Made by a program: the position numbers and the translations under genes. From IMG/VR virus record IMGVR_UViG_3300030294_000070, positions 1 through 44,082 of that record: a DNA stretch of 44,082 bases; one strand, given 5' to 3'. Position 1 is the first letter of the stretch. Each line of letters starts with the position of its first letter. Source of the DNA: a virus. Of this stretch, positions 13,074-36,235 are shown piece by piece. The notes below the pieces were generated by a model. The model ran no database searches and was not told where the DNA came from. It saw only the letters and a list, made by a program, of their open reading frames with translations.

Positions 13074-13110
13074 AACAGCAGCTTGGTTTGTCCTTTCTGC
13101 TGTTTTTTTT
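13074..13110 (+). terminator. Terminator before the capsid unit
   Basis: Arms AACAGCAG (13074-13081) and CTGCTGTT (13097-13104) are exact complements and run into nine or more T. The loop and second arm overlap the upstream part of the capsid promoter (13090), so termination and initiation signals are interlocked. Confidence 0.85.
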
Positions 13111-13124
13111 TGCTTTTACTTTTG
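13090..13124 (+). promoter_or_regulatory. Late promoter element, capsid unit
   Basis: GTCCTTTC at 13090 and TACTTTTG at 13117-13124 have the same spacing as five other copies in this prophage (GTCC to -7 box start, 27 bp). The -33 box is TTTC here rather than TTTT. Confidence 0.6.
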
Positions 13125-13148
13125 CTGAAAATAATTAAATCAAAGTAG

Positions 13149-14264
13149 ATGTCAAAAAATTTATTTCAAGTAGTAATGCCTGTGGCCGATTATGGTTTAG
13201 GGTATAATTACATTAAGTATTTACTTGATAATGCAGATAAAGGTCCAGTTACATTTGAGGTGTCAAGTCTAGGTGGAGATCTTAATCAGGCAAAGCAGGT
13301 AAAGAAATTGTTTGCCGATCACGGAGATATAACACTTGATTTTTTCGGTTATTGCGCCTCAGCTACAACTGTTCTTGGCCATGGAATTCCTGTTGAAAAC
13401 ACCAGAATTTATTCAGATGCATGGTTTATGATTCATCAGCCCCTTGTGTGGGTTGAAGAATGGGGAAGGATGAATGCTGATGATTTAACAACAGCCATAG
13501 AGAATTTAAAAGCTCAGAAGGAAGGTGCTGAACTTCAAACTCTCCAAATGGCAAAAGAGTATGCTGACTATACTGGTCAGCCAGTCGAAAAAATGCTATC
13601 AATAATGAAAGAGGAAAAATGGCTTACTGCTCAACAGGCTGTTGATCTTGGCTTAGTTGGTAAAGTTATTCCCTCAGTGAAAGGTAAAAAGTCTGCAATC
13701 ACAAATGAGCTAAAAGAAATGATAGCTGCTTGTGCTCTTCCTCCTATTCCTGAATCATCATCAGATGAAGAGCAGGAATTTTCCCGTTTTCAAAAATTTT
13801 ACAATCGTATTACTAACAATCAAAAAAACCAAAAAATTGAAATGAGAAAAGATTTTTCTTTAATTAATCAGGTTTTGGCAGTTGAAGGCGTTAACGAATC
13901 GAACGGACAAATTACGATGTCTGTTGAGCACGTTATGGCACTCAATAACAAAATCAAGGCTGATGCCGATTCAATTAGTTCTATTACCGCCGAGCGCGAT
14001 ACTGCCGTAAATGAAAAAGCAACTGCCGAAAATGCTCTAACTGGTTTAACGGCCAAAATTGATGAGCTTGATCCAACTGTAAAAGCTGCTGCAACTACTG
14101 AAGCTAAAGTTGCTGCTATTACTGCTAAACTTGCTTCGCGTCCTGGTGCTAAGGTTGAGAAACCTCACGGTAAAGGAAGTGAAACTTCTGTTGAAAATTC
14201 AGTAGAATGGGGTGATATTGACTCATTACCCCATAACCAAGCTGCTGATAAAGAAATTTGCTAA
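13149..14264 (+). CDS. ClpP-type head maturation protease with scaffold-like tail, 371 aa
   Basis: Residues 1-180 are a ClpP/S14-type peptidase: SSLGGDLNQA, the nucleophile Ser71 in FGYCASATTV, and His96 in FMIHQP. Such proteases trim scaffold and capsid during head maturation. Residues 230-371 differ: helical, Ala-, Glu- and Lys-rich (ISSITAERDTAVNEKATAEN), as in capsid scaffolds. An in-frame ATG at 13842 (residue 232) could give the scaffold alone, as lambda C/Nu3 does. The capsid gene follows after 19 bp, and a late promoter precedes this gene. Confidence 0.87.
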   Translation: MSKNLFQVVMPVADYGLGYNYIKYLLDNADKGPVTFEVSSLGGDLNQAKQVKKLFADHGDITLDFFGYCASATTVLGHGIPVENTRIYSDAWFMIHQPLVWVEEWGRMNADDLTTAIENLKAQKEGAELQTLQMAKEYADYTGQPVEKMLSIMKEEKWLTAQQAVDLGLVGKVIPSVKGKKSAITNELKEMIAACALPPIPESSSDEEQEFSRFQKFYNRITNNQKNQKIEMRKDFSLINQVLAVEGVNESNGQITMSVEHVMALNNKIKADADSISSITAERDTAVNEKATAENALTGLTAKIDELDPTVKAAATTEAKVAAITAKLASRPGAKVEKPHGKGSETSVENSVEWGDIDSLPHNQAADKEIC

Positions 14265-14283
14265 CTATTACACATTTATCATT

Positions 14284-15240
14284 ATGGCTATTAACAAGAC
14301 AGACATTATTAAAGAGTACGGCGCGTATTACAAAGCCGGAAGTGCAAACGAAAAACGGTTAAAAAGGCTGTTACTATTCGGTCGTGAGACCACAAAACTT
14401 GCCACTGAGATAAAAACTGATGACACGCTTTATCAATTAGGGCAATCAAAAATTTCTTCATTGGTACAAAGTTTTCAAAAAGGTTTTACCCCTAAAGGTG
14501 ATTTGACATTTACACCGAACGAGATTCGTTTATTTCATTTCAAGGTGGATTTAGAAATTTACCCAGATGACATTTCAGACAGTTGGTTAGGATTCCTTGA
14601 GAGTAATTCACTTACTCGTAAGGAATGGCCTCTTGTACGTTATATCATGGAATCTCATTTCTATCAACAGATTGATGATGACATGGAACGCCTTGTATAT
14701 TACAAGGGTGTCTATGTTGCTCCTACAACTGGAACTGCCGGAGTTACTTCCGGAGCAATGAATGGTTTGAAAATTCAATTGCAATCTCCCAAGGTAAATC
14801 ATGTTGCTCTGGCACCTTTAGAAGCTTCAACAATTTATGATCAGGTTGAACTTTTCTACGAATCAATTTCGGAAGAATATCAAGGTCAAAAACTAATTTT
14901 TGGAATGTCACCAAGCTGGAGACGTAAGTTCCTTAAAGATAAGAGAGCCCTTGGTTATTACGAGAAAAAAGGGCCTGATGAAATTGATGATGGTATTGAT
15001 TTCACTCCATCTAGTGTCATCGGACTGCCATCTATGATCGGAACTGATGATATCTGGGCTACACCAGTAGGGAACTTCTTGCATATAACCAAAAAAGGAG
15101 AAAATGCATCTAAAGCTAACATTGAAGAATCTAAGCGTTGTCTTGCAATCATGACAGATTGGTATGAAGGGTTAGGATTTGGGCTTAATGAAACTGTTTG
15201 GACAAATGTTGCCGCAGTTGCTCCTGCTCCTGCTGAATAA
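14284..15240 (+). CDS. Major capsid protein (probable), 318 aa
   Basis: The assignment rests on position directly after the protease-scaffold gene, on size, and on a capsid-like composition: GDLTFTPNEIRLFHFKVDLE, a central ESHFYQQIDDDMERLVYYKG helix, and a C-terminal GLNETVWTNVAAVAPAP. It should form the icosahedral shell. The ATG at 14284 (MAINKTDIIKEYG) is chosen; the frame is open upstream to 14212 but that part overlaps the protease end. I cannot name the HK97-fold subfamily from reading alone. Confidence 0.75.
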   Translation: MAINKTDIIKEYGAYYKAGSANEKRLKRLLLFGRETTKLATEIKTDDTLYQLGQSKISSLVQSFQKGFTPKGDLTFTPNEIRLFHFKVDLEIYPDDISDSWLGFLESNSLTRKEWPLVRYIMESHFYQQIDDDMERLVYYKGVYVAPTTGTAGVTSGAMNGLKIQLQSPKVNHVALAPLEASTIYDQVELFYESISEEYQGQKLIFGMSPSWRRKFLKDKRALGYYEKKGPDEIDDGIDFTPSSVIGLPSMIGTDDIWATPVGNFLHITKKGENASKANIEESKRCLAIMTDWYEGLGFGLNETVWTNVAAVAPAPAE

Positions 15241-15266
15241 TATAATCTTTTAAAAACAAATTTGTT

Positions 15267-15848
15267 ATGTCAAAAAGAATATCATTAGATACCATCGACC
15301 ATGATTTGGATGGTGGTAATATGTCAGGAATTGTACCTCGCGTAATTTACGGCTATTGGGAAGATGTGGCTGCATGGCCAACAGAACCGAAACCGACAGA
15401 ACTAGCTGGAGTAGTCACTCCTATGACATTGGAACAAGCCGGTGCCCTTGTTGGCGATGTGGTTATGAAATCTGGAACCAAAGCGTTCAACTTTGATTTT
15501 ACAGAAGATGTTGGCAGTTTGAAAATTAATTCAGTTGGTGAAACTGATGCTGCTCATGTTGAGTATGATTTAAGTCTTACTAAAGCAAAAATTGCAAAGA
15601 AAATCTTAGGATTCCAAAATGCAGCTTTGGAACGCAAAATGTTCTTCATTATTCAGGACGAAAACGGGAACTATTACCTTATGGGTAATAAACGTCGTGG
15701 TTGTACTTATGTTACCGGTGGAGATGGAAATACTACCGGAGCAACTTCAAGTGATCGTAACCAATCTGTAGTGAATTTCAAGTTCCGTGCATCAAAAGGA
15801 TATCTCTACGAAGGTGACGTAGAAGACATTTTGGTGCAAGTTCCGTAA
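15267..15848 (+). CDS. Probable tail tube or other major structural protein, 193 aa
   Basis: The protein is beta-rich and follows the capsid gene by 26 bp. The segment FNFDFTEDVGSLKINSVGET, then LERKMFFIIQDENGNYYLMG, NKRRGCTYVTGGDGNTTGAT, fits the tail-tube pattern of a two-layer beta barrel with an exchangeable loop. A tube role is inferred from fold impression and position. It ends the capsid unit and is followed by a strong terminator. Confidence 0.6.
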   Translation: MSKRISLDTIDHDLDGGNMSGIVPRVIYGYWEDVAAWPTEPKPTELAGVVTPMTLEQAGALVGDVVMKSGTKAFNFDFTEDVGSLKINSVGETDAAHVEYDLSLTKAKIAKKILGFQNAALERKMFFIIQDENGNYYLMGNKRRGCTYVTGGDGNTTGATSSDRNQSVVNFKFRASKGYLYEGDVEDILVQVP

Positions 15849-15868
15849 TCGTTCTAAATTTAAACTGT

Positions 15869-15900
15869 AAAAGCTCCGCATACATGCGGAGCTTTTTTTT
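15869..15900 (+). terminator. Terminator of the capsid unit
   Basis: AAAAGCTCCGCA (15869-15880) pairs with TGCGGAGCTTTT (15885-15896) and is followed by further T. A late-type promoter begins at the next base. Confidence 0.92.
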
Positions 15901-15935
15901 GTACTTTTTTCGCACGGAAAAGCGCACGTACTTTG
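15901..15935 (+). promoter_or_regulatory. Late promoter element, packaging unit (divergent copy)
   Basis: GTACTTTT at 15901 and GTACTTTG at 15928-15935, followed by TGTAA, keep the 27-bp spacing of the other copies, with A instead of C in the GTCC block and G instead of T at the first -7 base. Confidence 0.45.
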
Positions 15936-15972
15936 TGTAAATTATTAATCCACCTAATTTTAAAAGTAAAGT

Positions 15973-16797
15973 ATGGAAGTAAACATTTCGCCTGAAGTTC
16001 GACAGAAAGTGGTTGACTGGGTAAATTCAAAATCAAAAGATTTAAACACCGGACTTGAAATATTGGCTTCAACCGGCTATAAGCCTCATGTGTGTGCCAA
16101 CTTTATTGCTCACAAAAGGCGCCAAGACATTCCAACTAAATTGGAATCTGAACTTCGCCTATATCTTCGCTATTATGCCAATCCTAGTAATTCAATTCAT
16201 CAAGATGAAGAATTGGAAACTGATGAAAAAAAAGAATTGAAAGTATTGGGTAATATTGAAAAAGAGTTGCAAAATGAAGAATATCCACCAATAATCAAGC
16301 AATTATTGACTGAGTATTCAACCGACTACACGAAACGAAGTATTGCTCATAAAGAATTGAAAGCCGTTGGCGAAGATAATTCGGAAGAGTCGTGTGAGAA
16401 ACGTAAAGAATTGCTTTTTCTTATTGCCTGTTCAAGCCTTCGTCAAGATGCATTCTGGAAAGCATTTGAGGCATTTAAAACAGATGGAACTTTGCCTAAT
16501 GACGAACTATTCGCAGATAAGTATATTCCTGCAGTAAATGAAGAAACTGACGAAAACAAAGAGAAGGAATCTGAATTTGTATTGGCTACTGATTTGGATA
16601 AACTAAAAAAACAGTCTGATAATTGGAGAGGTAAAATTTCCAAGGCCAAAAATCAATTGGATTTCTGTTCTGATAAAAAAGAAGACAAACCAAACCCAAT
16701 GCCGGCAGGTCCAAAACGTATCACTAAAGAAAAGAAAGTTGCTCAATTGATTGCTGAAAAGCTACAAATCGATACTGCAATAGCTAATCTTAAATAA
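15973..16797 (+). CDS. Packaging-region hypothetical protein, 274 aa
   Basis: A strongly charged, helical protein (KKELKVLGNIEKELQNEE, KLKKQSDNWRGKISKAKNQL) whose N-terminus (EVRQKVVDWVNSKSKDLNTG, LEILASTGYKP) looks like a small helical domain. A Lys-rich C-terminus (RITKEKKVAQLIAEKLQ) could bind DNA. It is the first gene of the unit that contains the terminase genes, so a packaging or scaffold-type role is possible. I do not recognise the family. Confidence 0.55.
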   Translation: MEVNISPEVRQKVVDWVNSKSKDLNTGLEILASTGYKPHVCANFIAHKRRQDIPTKLESELRLYLRYYANPSNSIHQDEELETDEKKELKVLGNIEKELQNEEYPPIIKQLLTEYSTDYTKRSIAHKELKAVGEDNSEESCEKRKELLFLIACSSLRQDAFWKAFEAFKTDGTLPNDELFADKYIPAVNEETDENKEKESEFVLATDLDKLKKQSDNWRGKISKAKNQLDFCSDKKEDKPNPMPAGPKRITKEKKVAQLIAEKLQIDTAIANLK

Positions 16798-16815
16798 AGC
16801 GCTATTATTTTAAAG

Positions 16816-16842
16816 TCAACCCGAGACAATGTTTCGGGTTGA
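16816..16842 (+). other. Hairpin between the 15973 gene and the small terminase
   Basis: TCAACCCGAGA and TTTCGGGTTGA form an 11-bp stem with one G-U pair and a 5-nt loop, ending 23 bp before the preferred start codon. There is no T run, so it is more likely a processing or attenuation site than a terminator. Confidence 0.5.
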
Positions 16843-16865
16843 TTGATACCTACAAACCTGAATAT

Positions 16866-17462
16866 ATGGCTGAAATGGCAAAATACCAAACTAAAAAAGG
16901 ATTGGCAGAACAACGGCACGAACTTATTTTAGCTCATATTCTAGATCCTGAAAACTCTCCGCTTCCGACAGAATATAAAGAACAGTTTAATCGGGTCGTT
17001 TCTGCAGCTAAAATGCTCGATGAGCTTCATCCTAGCAGCGTTTACCCTCGCTTACAAGCAAAGTATAACATAACACGAAATACGGCCAGAAATGACATTA
17101 AATTAGCTCAGGAACTATTCAAAAGCAAACATGAGTTTGATTGGGATTACTGGCAACAATGGCAAATAAAGGATTTGGTTGATACAATTAGAACCTGTAA
17201 GCATGCCGGTAAGCAAAAAGAACGCATTGCAGCTCAAAAAGTGCTTCGTGATGTGATAGGCGAAAAGGTAATTGGTTCCGAAGATCCAAAACGAATGGAA
17301 AAGAGCGTATTCAATATTCAATTAAATGACAATAAAACAATTGTTAATTTCGATTTAAGCACGATAAAAGGACTTTCATCTACTGAGATACACACAATAG
17401 TTGAAGCTATTGTAGCACCGGCTGAAACGGATGAACAAATTTTAGAAATACTAAATACATAG
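16866..17462 (+). CDS. terS: Terminase small subunit (probable), 198 aa
   Basis: The middle, YPRLQAKYNITRNTARNDIK, is a helix-turn-helix of the kind used by small terminases to bind the packaging site. It is followed by a long helical region (QIKDLVDTIRTCKHAGKQKE, RIAAQKVLRDVIG) and a tail that may contact the large subunit. It lies just before the large terminase with one tiny gene between. The ATG at 16866 is chosen; the open frame extends to a TTG at 16839 inside a hairpin. Confidence 0.7.
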   Translation: MAEMAKYQTKKGLAEQRHELILAHILDPENSPLPTEYKEQFNRVVSAAKMLDELHPSSVYPRLQAKYNITRNTARNDIKLAQELFKSKHEFDWDYWQQWQIKDLVDTIRTCKHAGKQKERIAAQKVLRDVIGEKVIGSEDPKRMEKSVFNIQLNDNKTIVNFDLSTIKGLSSTEIHTIVEAIVAPAETDEQILEILNT

Positions 17463-17464
17463 AT

Positions 17465-17587
17465 ATGAAAGAATATAGAATTACTAAAATAGTTAAAGTG
17501 CTATTTTGCTTTTCAGCAGTAGGAATAATAACTACTGCTATAGAAATAGTAAAATTTACATGTTGGTTGATTAGTATAATTGTTTGA
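17465..17587 (+). CDS. Very small membrane protein, 40 aa, coupled to the large terminase
   Basis: The 40-codon frame begins 2 bp after the small-terminase stop. It encodes a basic start (MKEYRITKIVKV) and one long hydrophobic segment (about residues 12-40, with a charged Glu-Ile-Val-Lys in the middle). Its TGA overlaps the ATG of the large terminase (TGATG), a typical coupling signal. No family is recognised. The exact fit between its two neighbours is the main argument that it is translated. Confidence 0.5.
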   Translation: MKEYRITKIVKVLFCFSAVGIITTAIEIVKFTCWLISIIV

Positions 17588-19311
17588 TGGAAAGTTACTA
17601 CGAGGAAGATATTTCGCTTAATTCATTTCAAGTTACAGCTCAACTATTCAAGGCTAAACTCAAGTACTTGATAGCAGGTCGTGCTACTGGTAAATCGTTT
17701 GTAAATGGTGCTGAAGTGGATGAAAACGTGCGTATAATGCCTCGTGGTATTACAACTGTTACTCAGGATACACTTGGTCAGGCACTAACAAAAACACTCC
17801 CGTCTACATTCAAGTATCTTGAAATGCTTGGATATAAGAAGTATGATCCGAAAACAAAATCAGGTGATTATGTTATTTGTGCAAAACCGCCTGATCATTT
17901 CTATACTCCATTTGAAAAGGTAATGAGCTATGAGCACATGATCACGTTTAGCAACGGTCATGCGCTTTATTTACTTTCCCAAAAAGCCGGTGCACGTGGT
18001 CCAAATGCTGATTATAATATCACTGATGAGGCTTTGACCATTGATAAAGTAAAGTTTGACCAGGAAGCTGCAGCCACTAACCGTGGTAATGAAGAAATCT
18101 GGGGCTTTAAGAGAAAAGACGGAAAACCAAAGCTTGAAAAACACCACGGTTCTACGTTCACTTCTTCCATGGGTTATCTTCCGGAACACAAATGGATGAC
18201 AGATCCGGCACAATACTACGAAGATGAAGCAGGAATTCGGATCTTTGAGGTTTGGAATAAAATTGTCAATCTTCAACTACAGTTAATACGTGCTAAAGTA
18301 GATAATGACGAAAGATTAGCCGTTGAATTATGGCATGAATCAGTACGATTACGTAAACAGATAACTCCATTTGTCAGCAAAGATGGAGTTTTGTTCATGC
18401 TCTCTAATGCCTTTGACAATATCCATAATATTGGATTCTCATACATAACAAAGATGTACCAGGTAATGGACATTGTTACGTTTATGATTGAGATCCTGAA
18501 CTATTACATTGATAAAGTAACTGATTGTTATTATGCATTAGATGAACGACATGTTTATTATAAAGCTGATAATGATGATTATATTAGAGGATTAGCCGAT
18601 AACAATGACTTTGATTGGGATGATCTTAAAAAACGTAATTCCTTGTATGATGCCGATTGCGATCAGAACCAAGCAATTGAGATTACACCCGACTGGGGAT
18701 CTAAGATATCACTCATTGAAGTATCTCAAGAACGAATGTATGATTTTGTTACCGGGTTAATACAAAAGACTGATAACAATATCAACGAGTTCTTTGTAAA
18801 GCCGGATGAGTATCCTGATACTATGATCAATGCATTGATAGATAACTTTTGCGATTACTATCGATATCACAAGAAGAAAGTAGTAGTATACACTGTAGAT
18901 ACTTATGGTGACATTAAATTAGCAAATTCAAAGAAGACGTACAATGAGCATGCTATCTCACGCCTTAAATATCATAAGTGGAAGGTAGAAATCAGAAAGC
19001 ATCCAGGTAAGGAACCACCACAAAACGATAAGTATTTGCTTTGGCGTTATCTTCTTCACGAAACAGATCCATCATTACCTAAGAAGAGATTCAATGGCAC
19101 GCGCTGTAAGTACACGCTTATATCTATGAATAACACATCTGTTATTCAAAAGCCTAATGGCTTATTCGAAAAGGATAAGTCAAGCGAGAAGCGTACATCT
19201 GTATTACCTGAAGAAGCAACTCACTTCAGTGATGCAGTTGATAAACGCATCTGGACTAAGTATGGTCAAGGGCTTAGGAAGAACTCTACATTCATTGCTC
19301 CTCGAATTTAA
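17587..19311 (+). CDS. terL: Terminase large subunit, 574 aa
   Basis: The ATPase part has a Walker A motif GRATGKS at residues 31-37 and a Walker-B-like YNITDEA around residue 145. The C-terminal part has acidic strands expected of the RNase-H-like nuclease: ITPDWGSKISLIEVS, VVVYTVDTYGDIKL and a late HFSDAVD. Length fits large terminases. The enzyme cuts concatemeric DNA and pumps it into the prohead through the portal. The ATG at 17587 overlaps the upstream stop; an in-frame TTG at 17584 is not needed. Confidence 0.88.
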   Translation: MESYYEEDISLNSFQVTAQLFKAKLKYLIAGRATGKSFVNGAEVDENVRIMPRGITTVTQDTLGQALTKTLPSTFKYLEMLGYKKYDPKTKSGDYVICAKPPDHFYTPFEKVMSYEHMITFSNGHALYLLSQKAGARGPNADYNITDEALTIDKVKFDQEAAATNRGNEEIWGFKRKDGKPKLEKHHGSTFTSSMGYLPEHKWMTDPAQYYEDEAGIRIFEVWNKIVNLQLQLIRAKVDNDERLAVELWHESVRLRKQITPFVSKDGVLFMLSNAFDNIHNIGFSYITKMYQVMDIVTFMIEILNYYIDKVTDCYYALDERHVYYKADNDDYIRGLADNNDFDWDDLKKRNSLYDADCDQNQAIEITPDWGSKISLIEVSQERMYDFVTGLIQKTDNNINEFFVKPDEYPDTMINALIDNFCDYYRYHKKKVVVYTVDTYGDIKLANSKKTYNEHAISRLKYHKWKVEIRKHPGKEPPQNDKYLLWRYLLHETDPSLPKKRFNGTRCKYTLISMNNTSVIQKPNGLFEKDKSSEKRTSVLPEEATHFSDAVDKRIWTKYGQGLRKNSTFIAPRI

Positions 19312-19609
19312 CGCAGCTAATCAATGTTAGTTAATTATATGTCAACGTACGGGGAATCGTGTGTTAAAATCATATATCCTTAATAAACGTGCGTTTTTTA
19401 GTGCTATTTCTATAGGGCGGGGCGTGCTGAATTGTTGAACTTTGGTCTGTGTTTATTGCGATTTAAAGTATAAAAACTATTGAACTGTAGAGATTTGTTA
19501 TATTATTAGCATTTTTTATATATTGAAAAAAGATTAGATCCGTGATGCTTTAATTTGTCCTTTTCCGTCCATCTGTTATTGGCGAAATTTGTATCGTAAA
19601 ATTAAATTT
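19312..19609. other. Noncoding gap carrying a late promoter
   Basis: This 298-bp stretch is AT-rich apart from a GC-rich patch near 19415 (GGGCGGGGCGTG). No gene or clear terminator is seen. Its last 55 bp hold a late promoter element. Confidence 0.5.
19557..19591 (+). promoter_or_regulatory. Late promoter element, portal unit
   Basis: GTCCTTTT at 19557 and GAAATTTG at 19584-19591. Over 49 bp (19554-19602) it matches 36198-36246 at 46 positions. It also shares the GTCCTTTT and TTTGTrT blocks and spacing with 23669 and 25958. Confidence 0.75.
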
Positions 19610-20677
19610 ATGGTAGAAGAAAGATTCCCTACATCTGGATTAAGTGCTGAATATGGTGACATAATTATGAATTCTGTTACCAAAACTGTTTCACTCGAAG
19701 TTTCGTACCAAGGTAAAATTATTTTATCTGAGATTTATGTTCCTGACTCTGATGCTAAAATTTACATTAAAGACTTGGGGATGCTTGCCATGAACTTTAA
19801 GAGTAAAGCCGATTTTTCTATTTACAATGGAATAGATGGAGCATGTGTTCAGCTTACGGTATCATTAACAGAAGGAAGTCAGGTAGTGTCTAAAGATGTA
19901 ACTATTTATCAATGCATTGTGGATTTTGCAGACTCTCTGAATATTGACTTACTGAAAACGATCCCGCTTTCAAGAATGACAAAGAAAAAAACTGGAGTTG
20001 GGAGAACTGAATTTACTTCATTTTATGGTGGGTCAACTGTAAAAGCTTATATTGTTAAAAAAGGTCATAATCAGGATATTGCTATTACTGTCAATATAAT
20101 TGCTTTGGCAAATCCAAATAATATGTATCGAATTAATGTTTCACCGGAAATAGTAGCTGCCTTAGCTGATTGTTATCCATCTGACTTAGTATATTATGAA
20201 ATTTACACAAATAAAGATCAGGTTATTAGATTTGTAATGGAGCAGCGTAGTTATCCGCAATTACGCACATTTGTTTTTCGGAATTGCTTTGGAGCGCAAG
20301 AAAGTTTTACGTGCACAGGTGATGAAGAGAGTTCTCGCAAATGGAGTCGTGAATATGGGCTTAGCAAAAATATAAATATTCAGCTAACTCGTGACCTCGT
20401 CAATTCAATAACTGTGAATACAGGATTAGTTACCAATAGATCGGTAGAGGCTTTGGAGGATCTTCTTAATAGTGATCAGTTGGCTTTACTAGATGCACAG
20501 GGATTTCAGGCTATAATTATTTTGGAAGAGAATTTTAAAAATAATAGCCGACGAGATGAAGTCAGATCTTTTGATTTCACATACAGATTTGCTGGATATA
20601 ACCAATTCAGAACGACTTATGCACCATTTAAAACCCCTAGAGTTTTTGATGATACATTCAACGAGACATTTAATTAA
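19610..20677 (+). CDS. Phage structural protein of unknown role, 355 aa
   Basis: A beta-rich protein with repeated strands (VSLEVSYQGKIILSEIYVPD, VQLTVSLTEGSQVVSKDVTI) and a C-terminal region rich in Thr, Asn and aromatic residues (FDFTYRFAGYNQFRTTYAPF). It is the first gene of the unit that ends with the portal. A role in the head-tail interface or tail is possible; no family was recognised. The ATG at 19610 is chosen because the longer frame begins with TTG inside the promoter -7 box. Confidence 0.6.
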   Translation: MVEERFPTSGLSAEYGDIIMNSVTKTVSLEVSYQGKIILSEIYVPDSDAKIYIKDLGMLAMNFKSKADFSIYNGIDGACVQLTVSLTEGSQVVSKDVTIYQCIVDFADSLNIDLLKTIPLSRMTKKKTGVGRTEFTSFYGGSTVKAYIVKKGHNQDIAITVNIIALANPNNMYRINVSPEIVAALADCYPSDLVYYEIYTNKDQVIRFVMEQRSYPQLRTFVFRNCFGAQESFTCTGDEESSRKWSREYGLSKNINIQLTRDLVNSITVNTGLVTNRSVEALEDLLNSDQLALLDAQGFQAIIILEENFKNNSRRDEVRSFDFTYRFAGYNQFRTTYAPFKTPRVFDDTFNETFN

Positions 20678-20679
20678 TT

Positions 20680-20964
20680 ATGGCTAAACCTACTAAAATA
20701 AGACGTAACCTGATGCTTAAGGAAATGGATATTAAATGGCTTCCTAATGAAAAGAAGGTGCTTTTTTCTATAAAGTTTATAGAAAAATCAGGGAAGCTTT
20801 TATTCTTTCCTTTCGCTTGTTCCAGGGGATTGCGATACAACATGGCGGAAGCCAGGCAACGTGGTATACAGCCGTGTGATGAAAAAGGGAATGCAATTGA
20901 TCATGTTTATCCGGTAGGGATTGACGCGATAATACTATACAACCAAATGGAAGTAATACTTTAA
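20680..20964 (+). CDS. Small hypothetical protein in portal unit, 94 aa
   Basis: The protein (MDIKWLPNEKKVLFSIKFIE, SGKLLFFPFACSRGLRYNMA) reads as a small alpha/beta fold, with a conserved-looking end HVYPVGIDAIILYNQMEVIL. It lies 2 bp after the preceding gene and 3 bp before the portal gene. This tight spacing points to co-expression of all three. I do not recognise it. Confidence 0.6.
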   Translation: MAKPTKIRRNLMLKEMDIKWLPNEKKVLFSIKFIEKSGKLLFFPFACSRGLRYNMAEARQRGIQPCDEKGNAIDHVYPVGIDAIILYNQMEVIL

Positions 20965-20967
20965 ACT

Positions 20968-22335: not shown

Positions 22336-22370
22336 TAATTTCATTTTGTAAGTACATTTTATTGTTTGAT

Positions 22371-22410: not shown

Positions 22411-22418
22411 ATATTTTA

Positions 22419-22426: not shown

Positions 22427-22453
22427 TAAATCAACAATTCATATATTGCTATT

Positions 22454-23667: not shown

Positions 23668-23668
23668 T

Positions 23669-23703
23669 GTCCTTTTCCTCCCTTGTCATAAGTTTTAAAT
23701 TTG
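23669..23703 (+). promoter_or_regulatory. Late promoter element, connector unit
   Basis: GTCCTTTT at 23669 and TAAATTTG at 23696-23703 (an exact TAnnTTTG) with 19 bp between the -33 and -7 boxes. It lies directly after the terminator, 22 bp before the start codon at 23725. Confidence 0.72.
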
Positions 23704-25956: not shown

Positions 25957-25957
25957 T

Positions 25958-25992
25958 GTCCTTTTTCCAGATTTAAGTAAGCCGTAATTTTG
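25958..25992 (+). promoter_or_regulatory. Late promoter element, adhesin and lysis unit
   Basis: GTCCTTTT at 25958 and TAATTTTG at 25985-25992, followed by TGTAA, show the same 27-bp spacing. The ATG at 26010 follows 17 bp later. No terminator separates it from the upstream gene. Confidence 0.7.
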
Positions 25993-29297: not shown

Positions 29298-29298
29298 C

Positions 29299-31464
29299 AT
29301 GTACAGATATGACCCATATGCATTAATGTCTGCTGACAAACCTATTGCAGTAGAGACTTTTGTGGCTCCTGATGACTTCAATCCTGATGCTCAAGAATTG
29401 AATATACTCAAGGCCTTCCAAAAGTACAAAGGAAAGGACAAGAGTCACATTTATTCTATCGTAGATTCAGTGACCACTACCAAGATACCGGGATACATGG
29501 GAGTGCGTCACGTGTACTCAGAGAACGGTGGCGCGTACAAGGATGTACAGGACAGCATCATAAATTGGACTGCTGGTAGTAAGAAAAGACATGTGATTGC
29601 TTACACCTCTCTGAATAAGTACTGGCCCGACTTACCTCTAGGCATGGAGTGGTTGTATTTCACTACCAAAGTAGGGTCTATTTCTGCATATCAAGTTAGT
29701 GACCTAAAGTATATTCATTGTGAGTCATTAGCAACCGTTGACAGCATCAAAATTGATGCTTTCAACGGTTGCAATTTGACCGGAAGGTTAACAATTCCCC
29801 CAAATGTAAAAGAGATAGGAGATTACTCGTTTGCCAATAATTCAAACTTACAGTATTCTATAATAATACCAGATGGTGTAACAAGGGTAGGCGCTTTTGC
29901 ATTCTTTAATTGTCAAGGGTTTACGGGGCATATTTACACACCTAGCAGCGTAAAGGTTATTGGTTCTAGTGCATTTCGATCTTTATCTAATGCGCAGGGA
30001 CCGGTCTACCTATCAGAAAACCTTGAGGAGATAGGGCCCGGAGCGTTTATGGAAAGCTCAAGTTTAAAAGGATCTTTAGAAATACCGATAGGTGTAACTA
30101 AGATAAACCCTTACACTTTTTATGGATGTGCTGGTCTGGACGGTACCCTTGCCCTTCCTAGTAACCTCACTTTGGTTGATGAGGGAGCTTTTACTATGTG
30201 TGGACTAACTGGTCCCTTACACTTACCTCAGTCTTTAGGTGTGATAGGCGCAAGCGCTTTTGCTTATTGTAAGTTTACAGGTCCTTTGCAAATAGGAACA
30301 AGTGTCACTGTGATAAGCAATAGGGCGTTTTATAATTGTACAGATTTTACGGGAAGCTTAGTTATTCCTGACAATGTGACTATGGTAGCCTCCTATGCAT
30401 TTGCAAACTGCACAGGGCTCAATGGGACTCTTACTCTAGGAGCAGGAGTAACACAGTTGTACGGCTATACATTCAGTCATTGTGGGTTCACTGGAACTCT
30501 TAAAATTCCAAATACTCTTCTAAAGGTCACTGATGCGGACTTTTATAAAACCAATTTCAGTTCTTTGGATTTAGGTTCCGGTATACAAGAAATAAATTGT
30601 ACTGGCGAAGGAGGAGGAGTAGGCCCATTCATGGAGTTAAACATAGAGGGACCCTTAAATCTGCCTGCTAGTTTAAATTATATAGGCGAGTATGCATTTA
30701 AGGGGTGTACCAAGGTAACTAAAATCAATAATCCGTCCCCTTCGGGAAACTTAACCTACATAGGGGATTACGCATTCGATGGATGCACAGGGCTAACTGG
30801 GTATTTATCTCTAAATGATAAAGTAACAAATATAGGAATGTACGCATTTAGAGGTTGCACAGGGCTAGTAGGGTTGCAATTGCCTTCCTCTTTAACTACC
30901 ATACAGTACGGTACATTTAAGGGGTGCACTGGACTGACAGGTACTCTACAACTAAAAAATGTAACTGATGTGATGGGTGCGGCATTTGCTTACTGTTCCT
31001 TCACAGCATTGCCGGCTTACGCGGCTACCCATTTAGTAAATATCGGAGGAGGGCCTACTGATGATTCAGGAGCATTTGCATTTAATAAGGCTTTAAAAAC
31101 AATACCTTTATTGCCAAAGCTGAAAACTGTAGGAGCTAATGCATTTCATGGTTGTGATTATTTAAATACTGTAACATTAGGAGTACTCACCCTATTGGAT
31201 CAGGGGGCTTTCAGTTATTGTACTGCATTGCGTGATTTCACTTTAGGAAATACTGATATTTTAAGAATAGGAGATCTTTGCTTTAAGAATTGTACATCAT
31301 TAGCAACGTTTACCCTTAAGATGCCTATACCTCCTCCTGCATCTGATAATGTTGTAGATGGAGTTCCTGTGGGAACTTGTGTCCTGTATGTACCTGCAGG
31401 TTCAATAGAGTACTACCAAGTAATAGCTCCTTGGTTACAGTTTGTTAACGTACTCGAATTATAA
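29299..31464 (+). CDS. BspA-type leucine-rich-repeat protein, putative tail adhesin, 721 aa
   Basis: After an N-terminal part of about 140 residues without repeats (RYDPYALMSADKPIAVETFV), there are many LRR_5-type units of about 23 residues, such as LTIPPNVKEIGDYSFANNSN and LALPSNLTLVDEGAF. The end (CVLYVPAGSIEYYQV, then PWLQFVNVLEL) is the usual BspA-type closing segment. There is no signal peptide, so it is not an exported host-type BspA. It follows the collar adhesin by 1 bp, so it is probably a virion protein, with the N-terminus as tail anchor and the repeats as receptor binder. Confidence 0.82.
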   Translation: MYRYDPYALMSADKPIAVETFVAPDDFNPDAQELNILKAFQKYKGKDKSHIYSIVDSVTTTKIPGYMGVRHVYSENGGAYKDVQDSIINWTAGSKKRHVIAYTSLNKYWPDLPLGMEWLYFTTKVGSISAYQVSDLKYIHCESLATVDSIKIDAFNGCNLTGRLTIPPNVKEIGDYSFANNSNLQYSIIIPDGVTRVGAFAFFNCQGFTGHIYTPSSVKVIGSSAFRSLSNAQGPVYLSENLEEIGPGAFMESSSLKGSLEIPIGVTKINPYTFYGCAGLDGTLALPSNLTLVDEGAFTMCGLTGPLHLPQSLGVIGASAFAYCKFTGPLQIGTSVTVISNRAFYNCTDFTGSLVIPDNVTMVASYAFANCTGLNGTLTLGAGVTQLYGYTFSHCGFTGTLKIPNTLLKVTDADFYKTNFSSLDLGSGIQEINCTGEGGGVGPFMELNIEGPLNLPASLNYIGEYAFKGCTKVTKINNPSPSGNLTYIGDYAFDGCTGLTGYLSLNDKVTNIGMYAFRGCTGLVGLQLPSSLTTIQYGTFKGCTGLTGTLQLKNVTDVMGAAFAYCSFTALPAYAATHLVNIGGGPTDDSGAFAFNKALKTIPLLPKLKTVGANAFHGCDYLNTVTLGVLTLLDQGAFSYCTALRDFTLGNTDILRIGDLCFKNCTSLATFTLKMPIPPPASDNVVDGVPVGTCVLYVPAGSIEYYQVIAPWLQFVNVLEL

Positions 31465-31475
31465 TTGCGGAAATC

Positions 31476-31823
31476 ATGGACGACTTAGAAAAAACAACAA
31501 AAGAACTATTGCAGGGGGTTAAAGGACCACAAGCTAAAGCTATAATAGTAATGTCTATGGCATTAGATAGTAAGTTGGATGCTATCCTAAATGCCATTGA
31601 GCGTAACCGCGCGGAGAATGAGGAGCACATGAAGGCTATTAAGAAGGAAACAGATGATCGGTTTTCTAAGCTAAAAGTCATTATGTTTTTTGCGGACCAT
31701 AAATACATCCTTGTAATCATTTGCATCCTACTGGCTTCTTACTTTGGTTTTTCTGATTCTGAATCTAAGAAGACAGCCTCTAATCTGGGGAAAGCAACAG
31801 AAATAATTAAATATCTAAAATAA
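31476..31823 (+). CDS. Membrane-anchored coiled-coil protein of the lysis region, 115 aa
   Basis: A helical N-terminal part (LDAILNAIERNRAENEEHMK, AIKKETDDRFSK) is followed by one transmembrane segment (about residues 76-93, KYILVIICILLASYFGF) and a short tail. The gene opens the lysis cassette, 11 bp after the LRR gene. It may be a holin-associated or antiholin-like protein, but the topology alone does not decide this. Confidence 0.6.
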   Translation: MDDLEKTTKELLQGVKGPQAKAIIVMSMALDSKLDAILNAIERNRAENEEHMKAIKKETDDRFSKLKVIMFFADHKYILVIICILLASYFGFSDSESKKTASNLGKATEIIKYLK

Positions 31824-31828
31824 ATTTC

Positions 31829-32215
31829 ATGAAAACATTTTTAAACTTAGTGCTTTTGATTTGGGCCGTAATCAAATCATTTTTCAAGAAGAATCATCAT
31901 TTTATCACTGTACCGTGTGCAATAATTTTATTTGCAGGGCTCGTCCCGGTTCTACGTTGGTTTGATCCTACTGCAGCATCTTTCGATGCGGGTATATTTC
32001 AAATCCCTATTTTTGCAAGCGTGCAATTCTTTTTTTATCTAGCCGTGGCTTGGTTCGCTTTTCGCTTTGTATTCGGGAATTTCTACAGGCATTTAATTAC
32101 TGATATGAAAACAGATTTCAAAAATATTACATCATGGGAAAAATTAAAATTATCGTATTCAATCTTCTTTTTATTGTTTGCGGCACTTGTGTTGCTTTCA
32201 ATCAAAATAGCGTAG
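31829..32215 (+). CDS. Holin-like membrane protein, 128 aa, three TM segments
   Basis: Three hydrophobic stretches are visible (about residues 5-17 with 26-44, 58-84 and 109-127). Small size, several TM segments and position directly before the endolysin suggest a holin that forms membrane holes at lysis. The last 82 bp overlap the start of the endolysin gene in another frame. No sequence family was recognised. Confidence 0.6.
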   Translation: MKTFLNLVLLIWAVIKSFFKKNHHFITVPCAIILFAGLVPVLRWFDPTAASFDAGIFQIPIFASVQFFFYLAVAWFAFRFVFGNFYRHLITDMKTDFKNITSWEKLKLSYSIFFLLFAALVLLSIKIA

Positions 32216-32655
32216 CCAATGTATACCGCCATGAAATTGGCGTCAGAGAGCTTACAGGTCATAACGACGGTGTACGTGTCGAGCAATATCTTGCCAGTTG
32301 TCACCTGACTAAAGGAAATCCGTGGTGCGCGGCGTTTGTTACTTGGAGCTACAAGCAAGCAGGTATAAAAACGGTTATTAGTGGTTATGCACCGAATTGG
32401 TTCCCTACTTCGTCTGTAATTTACAGCAGGAGAAAGAAAGGCGGATCAATCCCGGGGACAGCAGATGTTTTCGGGATTTACTTTCCGAAAAAAAATCGGA
32501 TCGCACACGTTGGTTTTATTGATGACTGGCCGGCAGGATCCTTCGCCGTTACGGTGGAAGGAAATACCAATGAAGCCGGATCCAGAGAGGGAGACGGTGT
32601 TTATCGAAAAAGACGTTTAAAAAGTCAAATTTATAAAGTAAGCAGATGGTTATGA
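32134..32655 (+). CDS. Secreted CHAP-type endolysin, 173 aa
   Basis: A signal-like N-terminus (MGKIKIIVFNLLFIVCGTCV) is followed by a CHAP/NlpC-like domain with the expected catalytic residues: Cys65 in NPWCAAFVTW, His125 in NRIAHVGFI, and Glu142 or Asn144 in VTVEGNTN. These enzymes cut peptidoglycan stem or cross-bridge peptides. Sec export would let it reach the cell wall without a large holin hole. Its start lies inside the holin-like gene, and its stop overlaps the spanin start (ATGA). Confidence 0.85.
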   Translation: MGKIKIIVFNLLFIVCGTCVAFNQNSVANVYRHEIGVRELTGHNDGVRVEQYLASCHLTKGNPWCAAFVTWSYKQAGIKTVISGYAPNWFPTSSVIYSRRKKGGSIPGTADVFGIYFPKKNRIAHVGFIDDWPAGSFAVTVEGNTNEAGSREGDGVYRKRRLKSQIYKVSRWL

Positions 32656-33227
32656 GAAACTTTTTATCAATATTCAATATTGTTATATTGCTTGCCATTT
32701 TAATGGCTGGATGCTCCAGTACTAAAAAAGTGGAGAAGTCGAATGTAGATTCGTCTATTGCTTCAGATACAAATATGAATAAGAAAACGGAAGAAACGCA
32801 AACCGGTAGCATTACCGACACATCCGTAAAAACGCAGGATAAAAACACATCAAAGGTGAAAGAAACTAAGGTGACGGATTATGACCCGACAAAACCTATT
32901 GTTCCTGGAACCGGTAAACCTCCAGTAGTGAAAGAAACCATTACTACCGAGAAAGAGGAAACTCAGGAAATCCTAACGCAAAAGCTAAACCTGCAGATCG
33001 ATTATACCAGACAATTAAAACAGACTATTGATAGCCAGAATAGCATAATTACAAAGTTGAAGGCTAAAACAGAAACAGAAGTGACTACAGTTATCCCCTG
33101 GTGGAAGTGGATCCTTGCCGGTATAGTAGTTGGCGCGGTGCTGACGTTCCTGATTTATCACTTTGAGTGGTACGTCTGGTTTTTGAATTTGATAAAGAAA
33201 ATTCTTGTTTGGATAGGTAAGGGGTAA
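32652..33227 (+). CDS. Unimolecular spanin candidate, 191 aa
   Basis: The N-terminus has a lipobox (ILMAGC, Cys21), followed by a long polar stretch rich in Lys, Thr and Glu, a coiled-coil part (LTQKLNLQIDYTRQLKQTID) and a C-terminal transmembrane segment (about residues 148-171, WKWILAGIVVGAVLTFLIYH). A lipoprotein with a C-terminal inner-membrane anchor is the design of unimolecular spanins such as T1 gp11, which join the inner and outer membranes during lysis. The ATG at 32652 is chosen because it overlaps the endolysin stop; an ATG lies 6 bp upstream too. Confidence 0.78.
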   Translation: MRNFLSIFNIVILLAILMAGCSSTKKVEKSNVDSSIASDTNMNKKTEETQTGSITDTSVKTQDKNTSKVKETKVTDYDPTKPIVPGTGKPPVVKETITTEKEETQEILTQKLNLQIDYTRQLKQTIDSQNSIITKLKAKTETEVTTVIPWWKWILAGIVVGAVLTFLIYHFEWYVWFLNLIKKILVWIGKG

Positions 33228-33251
33228 AAAAGTCCCCGCCTCCATTCTGTT

Positions 33252-33359
33252 CGTTTCTCAGGCATTACAGAATGATAAAGGTGCATACACACCACGACGA
33301 AGACTTAAATGTCTTTGAAGTTGGTGTGTATGCACCTTTTTATATTTGCCTGAGAAGCG
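33252..33359 (+). terminator. Three-tier hairpin at the end of the lysis unit
   Basis: Three nested stems share one axis: a 13-bp outer stem (33252-33264 with 33347-33359, one G-U pair), a perfect 18-bp middle stem (33277-33294 with 33322-33339) and a short inner stem (33300-33315). The middle stem ends in TTTTTATATTT. It can end transcription from either side, but it is larger than a normal terminator. Confidence 0.75.
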
Positions 33360-33400
33360 TCACAAAAATAGGTATTAGTTTTTAAATAAAAAATAGAAGA

Positions 33401-34231
33401 ATGAAAAATTACAATCAATCGCCTCTACCATTTCAGGGGCAAAAGCGTCGATTTATGGCCGACTTTAAAACAGCATTAAATGAGTTCAAAACTGCACCGT
33501 TATTTATCGACTTATTTGGCGGAAGCGGGCTGTTGAGCCAATGGGTAAAAGAACAGTTGCCGGAAGCAACCGTTATTTACAACGATTTTGACGATTATCA
33601 TTTGCGAATAGCTAATATTGAGCGTACCAATATGCTGTTGGCTCAGTTTCGCATTATTCTACAGAATTTACCAGCAGATAAGATAATCAGCAAAGAAGCC
33701 AAAGAACATATTCTACAGGCTATTACAGTGGAAGAAAAAACAACCGGGTATGTCGATTACATTACTATATCGTCGAGTCTGTTATTTAGCATGAACTACT
33801 CCACAAATTATGATGACATGGCCAAACAGACCATGTATAATTGCGTGCGAAAGAATGGCTATGAAGATGCAGCCGGCTACCTTCAGGGAGTCGAAATAGT
33901 GAAACAAGATTACCGGGTATTGTTTGATCGGTGGAAACATGTGAGTGGCGTTGTATTTCTTGTTGATCCGCCATACTTATCTACCGACTGCAGTACTTAT
34001 AGTAGCTATTGGCGGTTAGGTAACTATTTGGATGTGCTGAATGTTCTGAAAAGAACGAGTTACTTTTACTTTACTTCGAATAAATCATCAATAATTGAGT
34101 TGACCGATTGGATTGAAAAGAATTTAAAAGCTGATAATCCGTTTAAAGGAGCTACTAAAAAAGAAATGGTTGCAAGAATGAGTAAAAATACCGGTTATAC
34201 GGATATAATGCTGTATAAAAGGGTTAGTTAA
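33401..34231 (+). CDS. D12-class DNA adenine-N6 methyltransferase, 276 aa
   Basis: The order of motifs fits Dam/D12 enzymes: LPFQGQKRRFM, the S-adenosylmethionine loop LFIDLFGGSGLLS, and the catalytic VDPPY at about residue 188. The target sequence cannot be read from the protein. It probably protects phage or lysogen DNA from restriction or changes gene expression. No restriction enzyme gene lies next to it, so it is an orphan methylase. It stands alone between the lysis terminator and the DUF5053-type unit. Confidence 0.87.
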   Translation: MKNYNQSPLPFQGQKRRFMADFKTALNEFKTAPLFIDLFGGSGLLSQWVKEQLPEATVIYNDFDDYHLRIANIERTNMLLAQFRIILQNLPADKIISKEAKEHILQAITVEEKTTGYVDYITISSSLLFSMNYSTNYDDMAKQTMYNCVRKNGYEDAAGYLQGVEIVKQDYRVLFDRWKHVSGVVFLVDPPYLSTDCSTYSSYWRLGNYLDVLNVLKRTSYFYFTSNKSSIIELTDWIEKNLKADNPFKGATKKEMVARMSKNTGYTDIMLYKRVS

Positions 34232-34339
34232 TGTTTTAAGTGTTATATAATTTTCAAATGCTCTGGACTGTGAAGTTCGGAGCGTTTTTTTGACCGATGT
34301 TAAATCTTTGGCTTGAGTGAAAAATAATTTAGAAATTAG

Positions 34340-34370
34340 TTGCTCAATAAACAAAAGTTTATTACCTTTG
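34340..34370 (+). promoter_or_regulatory. Host-type promoter for the 34407 unit
   Basis: TTG at 34340 and TACCTTTG at 34363-34370 (an exact TAnnTTTG) are separated by 20 bp. The start codon follows 36 bp downstream. This form differs from the late promoter elements. Confidence 0.65.
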
Positions 34371-34406
34371 TTGCATCAAAAAGGATAACTAATAACAAGA
34401 AAAAGG

Positions 34407-34562
34407 ATGAACGAATATGTATCAAAAGAAAGACGAAAACTTGAAAAAGAGTTGCTAATGTATCTGCGAAAATACAGATTTTATTCAGCTAGATTTAAAA
34501 AGATTAGCGACTTAAATACAATCATCGACGAGATTGTAAACGAATTAAAAAAAGATGTTTAA
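34407..34562 (+). CDS. Small basic protein, 51 aa
   Basis: A short gene with many Lys and Arg and a helical pattern (VSKERRKLEKELLMYLRKYR, FYSARFKKISDLNTIIDEIV). It has its own promoter, with a purine-rich stretch directly before the ATG. It lies 49 bp before the DUF5053-like gene, with a hairpin between, so the two probably form one unit. A short DNA- or RNA-binding role is possible. Confidence 0.6.
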   Translation: MNEYVSKERRKLEKELLMYLRKYRFYSARFKKISDLNTIIDEIVNELKKDV

Positions 34563-34568
34563 CTTCAA

Positions 34569-34606
34569 AATCCTCTCTCTAATAAAAAAGAGAGAGGATT
34601 AAAAAA
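34569..34606. terminator. Hairpin between the two genes of the DUF5053-type unit
   Basis: AATCCTCTCTCT (34569-34580) and AGAGAGAGGATT (34589-34600) are exact complements. The T run lies on the minus strand, so full termination is expected only in reverse. On the plus strand the GAGAGAGG arm lies close to the next start codon and could affect its translation. Confidence 0.6.
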
Positions 34607-34611
34607 ATAAT

Positions 34612-35013
34612 ATGATAATGACAACAAAAGAGAAATTTGAACAACTGAAAGAGGCGGAACTAAAGGCGAAAACAAAAAAAGAACTTGACAGCATTCAACT
34701 TGAGTTTGATAAATTGGCTACATTAGACCCTGACGGCTTTGAAGATGCTTTTATAGATAGTGCAAGACAGACACTTAAGGCTGCAAAACAACTAAAGATA
34801 AAAGAACAGATAAAAGAAATGCAGGAAATTGTATCGATGTCGTTTATTGCAAAAACTTACTTCAACAAAACAAAAAGCTGGATGAGCCAACGTATAAATG
34901 AATTAAATGTAAACGGTAAACCTGCCCAGTTCACCCCTGAAGAAATAAACACACTGAATGAAGCTTTTAAAGATATTTCTAAAAGAGTAGGTGAGTTTCG
35001 TATTTCGTATTAA
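34612..35013 (+). CDS. DUF5053-like protein, 133 aa
   Basis: The C-terminal block MSFIAKTYFNKTKSWMSQRI, NELNVNGKPAQFTPEEINTL matches my memory of the DUF5053 family of Bacteroidota. It reads like a HTH module (SWMSQRINELNVNGK). The N-terminal half is a charged coiled coil (FEQLKEAELKAKTKKELDS). The family function is unknown to me; a DNA-binding role is likely from the HTH-like part. The ATG at 34612 or 34618 could be used. A terminator follows. Confidence 0.7.
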   Translation: MIMTTKEKFEQLKEAELKAKTKKELDSIQLEFDKLATLDPDGFEDAFIDSARQTLKAAKQLKIKEQIKEMQEIVSMSFIAKTYFNKTKSWMSQRINELNVNGKPAQFTPEEINTLNEAFKDISKRVGEFRISY

Positions 35014-35046
35014 TTAATCCTGACAAAGTCAGTGATATTAAGTGTT

Positions 35047-35075
35047 AGCCCTACAGAAATGTAGGGCTTTTTTTA
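35047..35075 (+). terminator. Terminator after the DUF5053-like gene
   Basis: AGCCCTACA (35047-35055) and TGTAGGGCT (35060-35068) with a GAAA tetraloop, followed by seven T. Confidence 0.92.
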
Positions 35076-35090
35076 TTTTAAGTAATTCCG

Positions 35091-35098
35091 TATATTTG
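35091..35098 (+). promoter_or_regulatory. -7 box of a host-type promoter for the secreted cargo gene
   Basis: TATATTTG fits TAnnTTTG exactly, 40 bp before the start at 35139. The -33 region is only T-rich because it overlaps the preceding terminator. Confidence 0.5.
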
Positions 35099-35138
35099 TA
35101 GCTTATTATTTAATATAAACATCTTAAAAATTGAGTTT

Positions 35139-36104
35139 ATGAAAAAAGGTTTACTATTGGTTGTTATGGCTGTAATACCAATCATGCATTTGTTTTCTCA
35201 AAATGAATATATAGTAAAGACTAAATCATTTGAAAATAAAAATGATACAATAAAACTTTCCTTAGAACAGCAATTCGTAAAAAATAATTTTCGTTATATA
35301 CCAATGAATAACTGGGATAAGAATATGAAATTTATGGTTGAGAAACCTTATGAATCGGAAATAAATACATACTCAATATATACTGATCACAATCACATAT
35401 ATCCTTCAATTGATAGAAAATTATTGGGAGATAAAATATTCACAATTGATTCTGTTTCTTTCGAACATATTGAAAGAATAGGTGTAGGAACTAAATTAGA
35501 GAAAATTATATATTTTAATTGCGAAGGTAGAACTTTTAAATATTCATTCTATAATAATGATGATGATTATCCATGTATTTATGATTTGATATATCTTGGA
35601 GACATTGAAAATTGTAGAAAATTATTAATTGGTAAAACATTATATACTTTAAACATAGACTGGCTACAAGATGGTGTTCAAGGAGTATCCAAATATAGTA
35701 GAAAATGGGTTCCTGTTATTATAAAGAAAATAGGGGTGGGTGATTCTCAGAATAGACCTATAAAAATTATATTTGAATATAATAAAAAAGAATTTTACAT
35801 CGAAGTGTCAATGTCAAAAACCAATTGTACATCAATAGCCGATAATGATGACAACTTTAATACAAATTTCTCATTTACGAATCCAAAATTGAGATATCCA
35901 AAAATACCTAAAGATATCTGGGACTTAATATGCATAAATCAAGTTAGAATTGGAATGACAAAGGCTCAATGTAGATTATCATGGGGAGATCCAGAAGATA
36001 TAAATAAAACTTCAGGGAATTGGGGTACTTCTGAACAATGGGTATATTCTGCTTCAAGTTACTTGTATTTTAAGAATGGAATTTTATCAACGATCCAACA
36101 TTAA
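35139..36104 (+). CDS. Secreted cargo protein with SmpA/OmlA-like C-terminal segment, 321 aa
   Basis: A signal peptide (MKKGLLLVVMAVIPIMHLFS) predicts export; there is no lipobox. The body is beta-rich with many Asn, Asp and Tyr. The C-terminal 60 residues (INQVRIGMTKAQCRLSWGDP, then EQWVYSASSYLYFKNGILST) follow the SmpA/OmlA-like pattern: a short helix, GMT, WGxP, then strands with a W-Y pair. It sits between its own promoter and terminator. That independence, and its low GC content, suggest lysogenic-conversion cargo acting in the periplasm. Confidence 0.68.
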   Translation: MKKGLLLVVMAVIPIMHLFSQNEYIVKTKSFENKNDTIKLSLEQQFVKNNFRYIPMNNWDKNMKFMVEKPYESEINTYSIYTDHNHIYPSIDRKLLGDKIFTIDSVSFEHIERIGVGTKLEKIIYFNCEGRTFKYSFYNNDDDYPCIYDLIYLGDIENCRKLLIGKTLYTLNIDWLQDGVQGVSKYSRKWVPVIIKKIGVGDSQNRPIKIIFEYNKKEFYIEVSMSKTNCTSIADNDDNFNTNFSFTNPKLRYPKIPKDIWDLICINQVRIGMTKAQCRLSWGDPEDINKTSGNWGTSEQWVYSASSYLYFKNGILSTIQH

Positions 36105-36168
36105 TTGAAAATATTTTCATTTTCATATATTAGATCCTGAATGACCAGGAATAAATACATTATTTAAT

Positions 36169-36200
36169 AGCCTCACCTTAACTGGTGAGGCTTTTTTTTT
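36169..36200 (+). terminator. Terminator after the secreted cargo gene
   Basis: AGCCTCACC (36169-36177) and GGTGAGGCT (36184-36192) flank a 6-nt loop, and nine T follow. The T run runs into the next late promoter. Confidence 0.93.
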
Positions 36201-36235
36201 GTCCTTTTCCGTCCTGCTGTTATTGGCGAAATTTG
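36201..36235 (+). promoter_or_regulatory. Late promoter element, tail unit
   Basis: GTCCTTTT at 36201 and GAAATTTG at 36228-36235. Over 49 bp (36198-36246) it matches the portal-unit promoter at 46 positions, although the two lie 16.6 kb apart and drive different genes. Confidence 0.75.

Follow-up and report, generated by a model that had tools for sequence, protein, structure and literature searches.

The 44,082-nt IMG/VR record IMGVR_UViG_3300030294_000070, hereafter the window, harbours six copies of a promoter element in which a conserved box, TGTCCTTTT, lies at a fixed distance upstream of a -7 box of the Bacteroidota type. These sites form a well-supported family of late promoters, which is phage-specific, located before late genes and rigid in its geometry. 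As judged from the sequence, the six sites are probably activator-dependent late promoters, whose box would be read by the basic protein encoded at 12029-12595 on the + strand, with the host RNA polymerase keeping the -7 box. The strong association of the 12029 family with the GTCC box is well supported, and we infer that a protein of this type binds DNA, activates rather than represses transcription and contacts the sigma factor.

Six late promoters with a rigid architecture

A first-pass annotation of the window had placed the sites at 13090, 15901, 19557, 23669, 25958 and 36201, and each was found there. The GTCC motif (GTAC at 15901), followed by TTT[T/C], was seen at all six. The fixed geometry that had been proposed holds, as TTTG starts 31 bp past the G of GTCC in 6/6 sites, but the strict form TAnnTTTG is present in only half of them (13090, 23669 and 25958). 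In site order, the 8-mers at +27 are TACTTTTG, GTACTTTG, GAAATTTG, TAAATTTG, TAATTTTG and GAAATTTG.

All six sites are on the + strand, outside long open reading frames (ORFs) and directly 5′ of late genes, in agreement with the view that they head structural transcription units. Promoter 1 (13089-13124; TGTCCTTTC-N19-TACTTTTG) precedes the ClpP-like head protease gene 13149, and promoter 2 (15900-15935; TGTACTTTT...GTACTTTG) lies upstream of gene 15973. Promoter 3 (19556-19591; TGTCCTTTT-N19-GAAATTTG), promoter 4 (23668-23703; TGTCCTTTT-N19-TAAATTTG) and promoter 5 (25957-25992; TGTCCTTTT-N19-TAATTTTG) are found upstream of genes 19610, 23725 and 26010, respectively, and promoter 6 (36200-36235; TGTCCTTTT-N19-GAAATTTG), a near-copy of promoter 3, upstream of gene 36254 and the tape-measure gene 36730. 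An intrinsic terminator stands immediately before three of the six sites (15901, 23669, as a hairpin, and 36201), and the promoters at 19557 and 25958 lack any terminator.

A position model was built from 32 non-redundant sites of the window and its relatives, including 5/6 window sites; the columns GTCCTTT and [AT]TTTG belonged to the site selection and the remaining columns did not. It yields a -7 consensus of (T/G)AnWTTTG, followed by TA and an A-rich stretch, with A at the second -7 position in 31/32 sites, and reveals an invariant T preceding GTCC (32/32), which the first-pass annotation had missed. The spacer between the two boxes is unconserved in this model, and at -33 the sites lack TTTG and have TTTT or TTTC as part of TGTCCTTTT. 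Scanning the 44-kb window with the two-box model returned six places above threshold, exactly the six sites, while two Markov shuffles of the window gave 0 and 0 sites with the same model, confirming that the six are real and beyond chance.

The pattern was also sought in 198 Bacteroidales genomes (~0.7 Gb) as a measure of its rate at random chromosomal positions. The GTCC/-7 pair occurred 68 times in total, with the spacing of the phage sites in 22 cases and with one of two neighbouring spacings in 46, which is chance level apart from a single cluster of three sites in 7 kb belonging to a prophage (G022), and a host promoter pattern is thereby excluded. A scan of viral contigs gave 52 matches with this phage spacing, compared with 34 and 36 for the two adjacent spacings; it mixes true and chance matches, and only showed that the motif extends past close kin. 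Within the window, a canonical early promoter on the + strand (2193-2223, near 2216; TTTG-N19-TAGTTTTG) and two accessory-gene promoters (33341 and 35091) are devoid of GTCC. The motif can thus be regarded as a phage late-promoter mark, as had been suggested: it is conserved, phage-specific and at chance level in the host.

These data bear on the idea that the sites are host sigma promoters of an ordinary kind whose -33 region is biased, and for which a phage activator would be unnecessary. The fit of the -7 box to the host TAnnTTTG consensus and a spacing near that of the host speak for it, but GTCC is outside the host consensus and unenriched in host genomes, is retained in phages with a GC content of 59-65%, is missing from the early and accessory promoters of the same phage, and belongs to a box whose word changes phage by phage in step with the 12029-type protein present. 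We consider this explanation unlikely.

Individual promoters show further features. The 19554 and 36198 copies are identical at 46/49 bases, as claimed by the first-pass annotation, and because this 49-bp near-identity (19554-19602 and 36198-36246) extends to the otherwise unconserved spacer, it suggests that promoters 3 and 6 were recently duplicated or homogenized by gene conversion. The GTCC of promoter 1 is located in the loop of a terminator-like hairpin, CAGCAG..CTGCTG-T9 (about 13070-13112); since an overlap of GTCC and hairpin recurs at the first late promoter in loci L243/L244, the halt of early read-through and the late start may be coupled. The promoter 2 spacer contains CGCACG at 15911-15916 and 15923-15928, as direct repeats with a 12-bp period. 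Relatives have GTCCTTTT at this promoter and keep the CGCACG repeats, and more distant kin carry AAAGCGA repeats at the same position; the loci with such repeats before gene 15973 are L008, L002, L011, L014 and L019, together with L240, L243 and L245. They possibly represent an operator or a cos/pac-binding site for a nearby terminase gene.

The box and the 12029 family across phages

Using the product of gene 20968 as a protein query, 30 IMG/VR loci with 50-100% identity were collected, and a Dysgonomonas prophage was fetched with a terminase-like query. In these relatives, the same element stands before orthologues of genes 19610, 23725, 26010 and 36254, with a diverged spacer. Among the phages picked by the gene 20968 product, the orthologues of 19610 and 23725 carry the box wherever the gene heads a unit, and where a relative has the gene fused into an upstream operon, the box is found at the head of that operon. 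Near-complete relatives possess five to seven sites each, which lie on the late strand and, with few exceptions, outside ORFs, and a single spacing accounts for 68/69 sites when three spacings are allowed. No description of late promoters of this type was found in the open-licence papers searched.

The gene at 12029-12595 encodes a 188-aa protein with an isoelectric point (pI) of 9.2 and lies where the early/middle genes end, shortly ahead of the first late promoter. Homologues are present in all near-complete box-carrying relatives, including G001-G005 and also G009 and G010, two structurally distinct phages most of whose other late genes differ from those of the window. Test loci were next picked by the 12029-type protein sequence alone, and TGTCCT proved to be the top-enriched 6-mer upstream of the downstream late ORFs, occurring in 12/17 loci against 1.5 expected (z 10.2; highest z over 200 shuffles, 6.6); an earlier, stricter definition of the upstream region gave a weaker enrichment and was replaced by the one behind this value. 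An out-of-sample set was then obtained with a wider profile, which detected new members in Bacteroidota genomes and left 13 usable loci. In 11 of these (47 regions), GTCCT stood ahead of at least two ORFs, at 27 bp from (T/C/G)AnnTT in 21/25 cases, and the two failures, L270 and L278, are both weak protein matches.

The association is also seen in an isolated phage, as Leef_1, whose host is Polaribacter, carries a homologue (Leef1_39) and six GTCCTTTT boxes. It was found with the G009-type protein by tblastn against annotated phages, a search in which the G391-type and G015-type proteins gave no match. Phages B124-14, 11b and p00 have neither the 12029-type protein nor the boxes.

The word after GTCC differs between phages (TTTT, TATT or TTTA) and is mostly uniform inside one phage. 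All five boxes of G391 and all those of L275 read GTCCTATT, L271 has ACACGCTGTCCTTTT four times, and G535 has five GTCCTA-type boxes in the context CCCAC-GTCCTA, ~40 bp before ORFs. In the phages with a GC content of 59-65% (L249-L254), TGTCCTTTT is kept with a CAGCTTTGC-like -7 box. Phage 6H (L256) encodes a distant 12029 homologue at 31122-31658 on the - strand. In the same phage, ATGTCTTAAA can be read by eye 26-27 bp before -7 boxes upstream of three units, and is a lead for a different late box. Downstream of the weak family member in locus L278 (G932:C22:847900), GTCCCGTG occurs twice ahead of ORFs and may be another variant.

At the protein level, the 12029 product matched no PHROG, Pfam or NCBIfam model. 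Its 35 distinct members are consistently basic, with a pI >8 in 34/35 and a median of 9.2. An AlphaFold2 model of residues 1-112, computed with 29 homologues (predicted local distance difference test score, 88.5), shows a strand-helix-helix (beta-alpha-alpha) arrangement occurring twice; as the model has only two strands, these are presumably paired. In the full-length model, conserved C-terminal helices follow the two units. This predicted topology is that of a single-chain ribbon-helix-helix (RHH) pseudo-dimer and provides a lead towards an RHH-like DNA-binding fold, which would suit an asymmetric box.

A proposed phage activator in place of the -33 contact

In the mechanism that we propose, the host RNA polymerase with its primary sigma factor would still read the -7 box (T/G)AnWTTTG, whereas the -33 TTTG would be replaced by the phage-specific box TGTCCTTTT. 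This box would be recognized by the 12029-12595 product, made at the end of the early/middle genes and bound at about -39 to -31, where it may touch or substitute for the sigma region that reads -33. All late units would be switched on jointly, and only once the regulator exists, and related phages across the phylum would possess diverged versions of the protein with matching changes in the word after GTCC. A direct contact with the holoenzyme is suggested by the rigid overlap of the box with -33 and the retention of the -7 box, as in T4 middle promoters. A broader reading, which we hold only tentatively and at slightly less than even chances, is that an unstudied family of small RHH-like proteins, possibly single-chain pseudo-dimers, appropriates the Bacteroidota sigma holoenzyme phylum-wide and in phages only, so that, from gut to marine phages, each variant box would belong to an activator/promoter pair of its own.

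Several observations weigh against the assignment of the 12029 product as the reader. Loci with a homologue but no clear box exist, namely the weak matches L270 and L278 and the short or unclear L236 and L242. Conversely, G008, G015 and G022 have good boxes, and the protein encoded at the corresponding position is no more than a distant homologue (hhalign E 0.0014, probability 17%), so that the unity of the family rests partly on position for them, and no 12029 homologue was found in G014, a linear fragment with boxes. The RHH-like fold rests on the two predicted beta-alpha-alpha units. A Foldseek search of the PDB with the full-length and truncated models returned no significant match, the two top TM-scores (both 0.35; E 2.4 and 7.7, non-significant) being those of MJ0366 (2efv) and an F relaxosome chain (9f0x) that we take to be TraY; an internal repeat was not supported at the sequence level by hhalign, and no RHH profile of Pfam matched across 29 members. 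Finally, the linkage to late genes could reflect hitch-hiking with other genes of the same module, an argument countered by the fact that the module genes differ between G009, G010 and the window.

The 12029-type protein could also read the box as a repressor of late genes, since the data are associations only and a site overlapping -33 could block the polymerase. We regard this as improbable: the -33 TTTG is missing and the promoters therefore look weak when unaided, and the gene ends the early region, the usual place of a late activator, away from the lysogeny repressor.

The first-pass annotation had anticipated a phage activator reading GTCC, which is probably correct, and had nominated the LuxR/GerE-type protein encoded at 2503-3060 on the + strand, which did not hold up. 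This is a genuine phage regulator (phrog_10300, with a GerE domain), its gene is annotated in Leef_1, and a two-profile search detected such genes in G001, G004, G005, G010 and G015. The same two profiles found none in G003/G007 (Dysgonomonas), G006 and G009, all of which carry boxes or clear variants, and phage 6H lacks GTCC boxes despite its annotated LuxR gene. The protein is a poor candidate because it is missing from these box-carrying prophages, and on co-occurrence it was ruled out as the reader. The GTCC box is moreover a single asymmetric word and not a dyad, whereas GerE-type proteins are usually dyad binders. It is thus quite improbable that the LuxR-type protein activates late genes through GTCC; its gene adjoins the repressor in the early region, and a role as an early or lysogeny regulator is more likely.

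The neighbour of the proposed activator gene can be considered in the same way. The last gene before promoter 1 (12576-13049, + strand) encodes a 157-aa acidic protein (pI 4.5) and has counterparts adjacent to the 12029-type gene in most box phages, a position from which its product might be taken for the reader. Such products are, however, acidic (median pI 4.7), and the C-terminal beta-rich region of the 12576 product is shared with that of the late gene 15267-15848, which follows the likely capsid gene. The acidic gene of G535 and of L247/L248 is separated from the 12029-type gene by the first box, indicating that the acidic gene is itself late. The candidate was ruled out on these grounds, a reader function being very unlikely, and the 12576 product is probably structural and not a regulator.

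An interpretation of GTCC as a terminator, antitermination or RNA element (Q/qut-like) and not as part of a promoter draws on the several sites that follow terminators and on the first one, which overlaps a hairpin, but is highly improbable given that the conserved distance is to the -7 box and not to the hairpin, that a start codon lies 15-45 bp beyond and that the boxes at 19557 and 25958 have no terminator.

Two other genes were tried as readers and ruled out, as they are not found across box-carrying phages. One is the DUF5053 gene at 34612-35013, which is located before the tail genes; a small gene (123-138 aa) with its own GTCC promoter occupies a similar place in G001 (23023), G002 (23180), G004 (7676) and G005 (10963). 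The other, at 8201-8752, encodes a small phage protein that carries a KOPS-reading FtsK-gamma domain without being an FtsK protein itself.

Significance and relation to known systems

The timing of late gene expression in Bacteroidota phages is, as far as the literature searched shows, undescribed. A defined box with a candidate reader would allow late regions and operons to be called from sequence, and the 12029 family, so far without annotation, would gain a function. Phage-dependent expression switches for Bacteroidota are a possible application. The system would also add a second natural example in which a phage supplants the upstream contact of sigma, and would do so in a phylum whose promoters are unusual. 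The kind of control, a phage activator with a dedicated late promoter, is known; the box, the family and their Bacteroidota-wide spread are not in the open-licence papers searched.

The Bacteroidota primary-sigma consensus is TTTG / TAnnTTTG. Host promoters of this type share the -7 box, its position and the short leader with the phage sites, and differ from them in that the phage sites lack the -33 TTTG, have a conserved TGTCCTTTT and are not found as host promoters. In Flavobacterium psychrophilum, TAnnTTTG is located at -12 to -5 and the median leader is 24 nt (PMC9723704).

As regards the protein, the likeness to the tandem RHH protein TraY lies in the two beta-alpha-alpha units with only two strands in the 12029-type model, and the difference in the extra conserved C-terminal helices and the lack of a Pfam RHH match.

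Several phages entrust the switching of multiple late units to one early or middle gene beside the late region, and in this respect the window would resemble Mu (C), P2 (Ogr) and, as a functional analogue, lambda (Q). The sites of Mu C and P2 Ogr are dyads located further upstream, and lambda Q is an antiterminator, whereas the window has a single asymmetric box overlapping -33.

The closest parallel is offered by the middle promoters of T4, at which a MotA box operates together with AsiA in sigma appropriation. In both systems, a phage word replaces the upstream sigma element at a rigid distance from a retained host box (-10 or -7), and many units share the box, for which the reader proposed here is likewise a small phage protein, presumed to bind DNA. 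Neither a protein family nor a PDB chain was found to resemble the candidate 12029 regulator, no search directed at MotA or AsiA having been made. The systems diverge in that the window relies on a sigma factor and a -7 box of the Bacteroidota type, on the word TGTCCTTTT and on late structural rather than middle genes.

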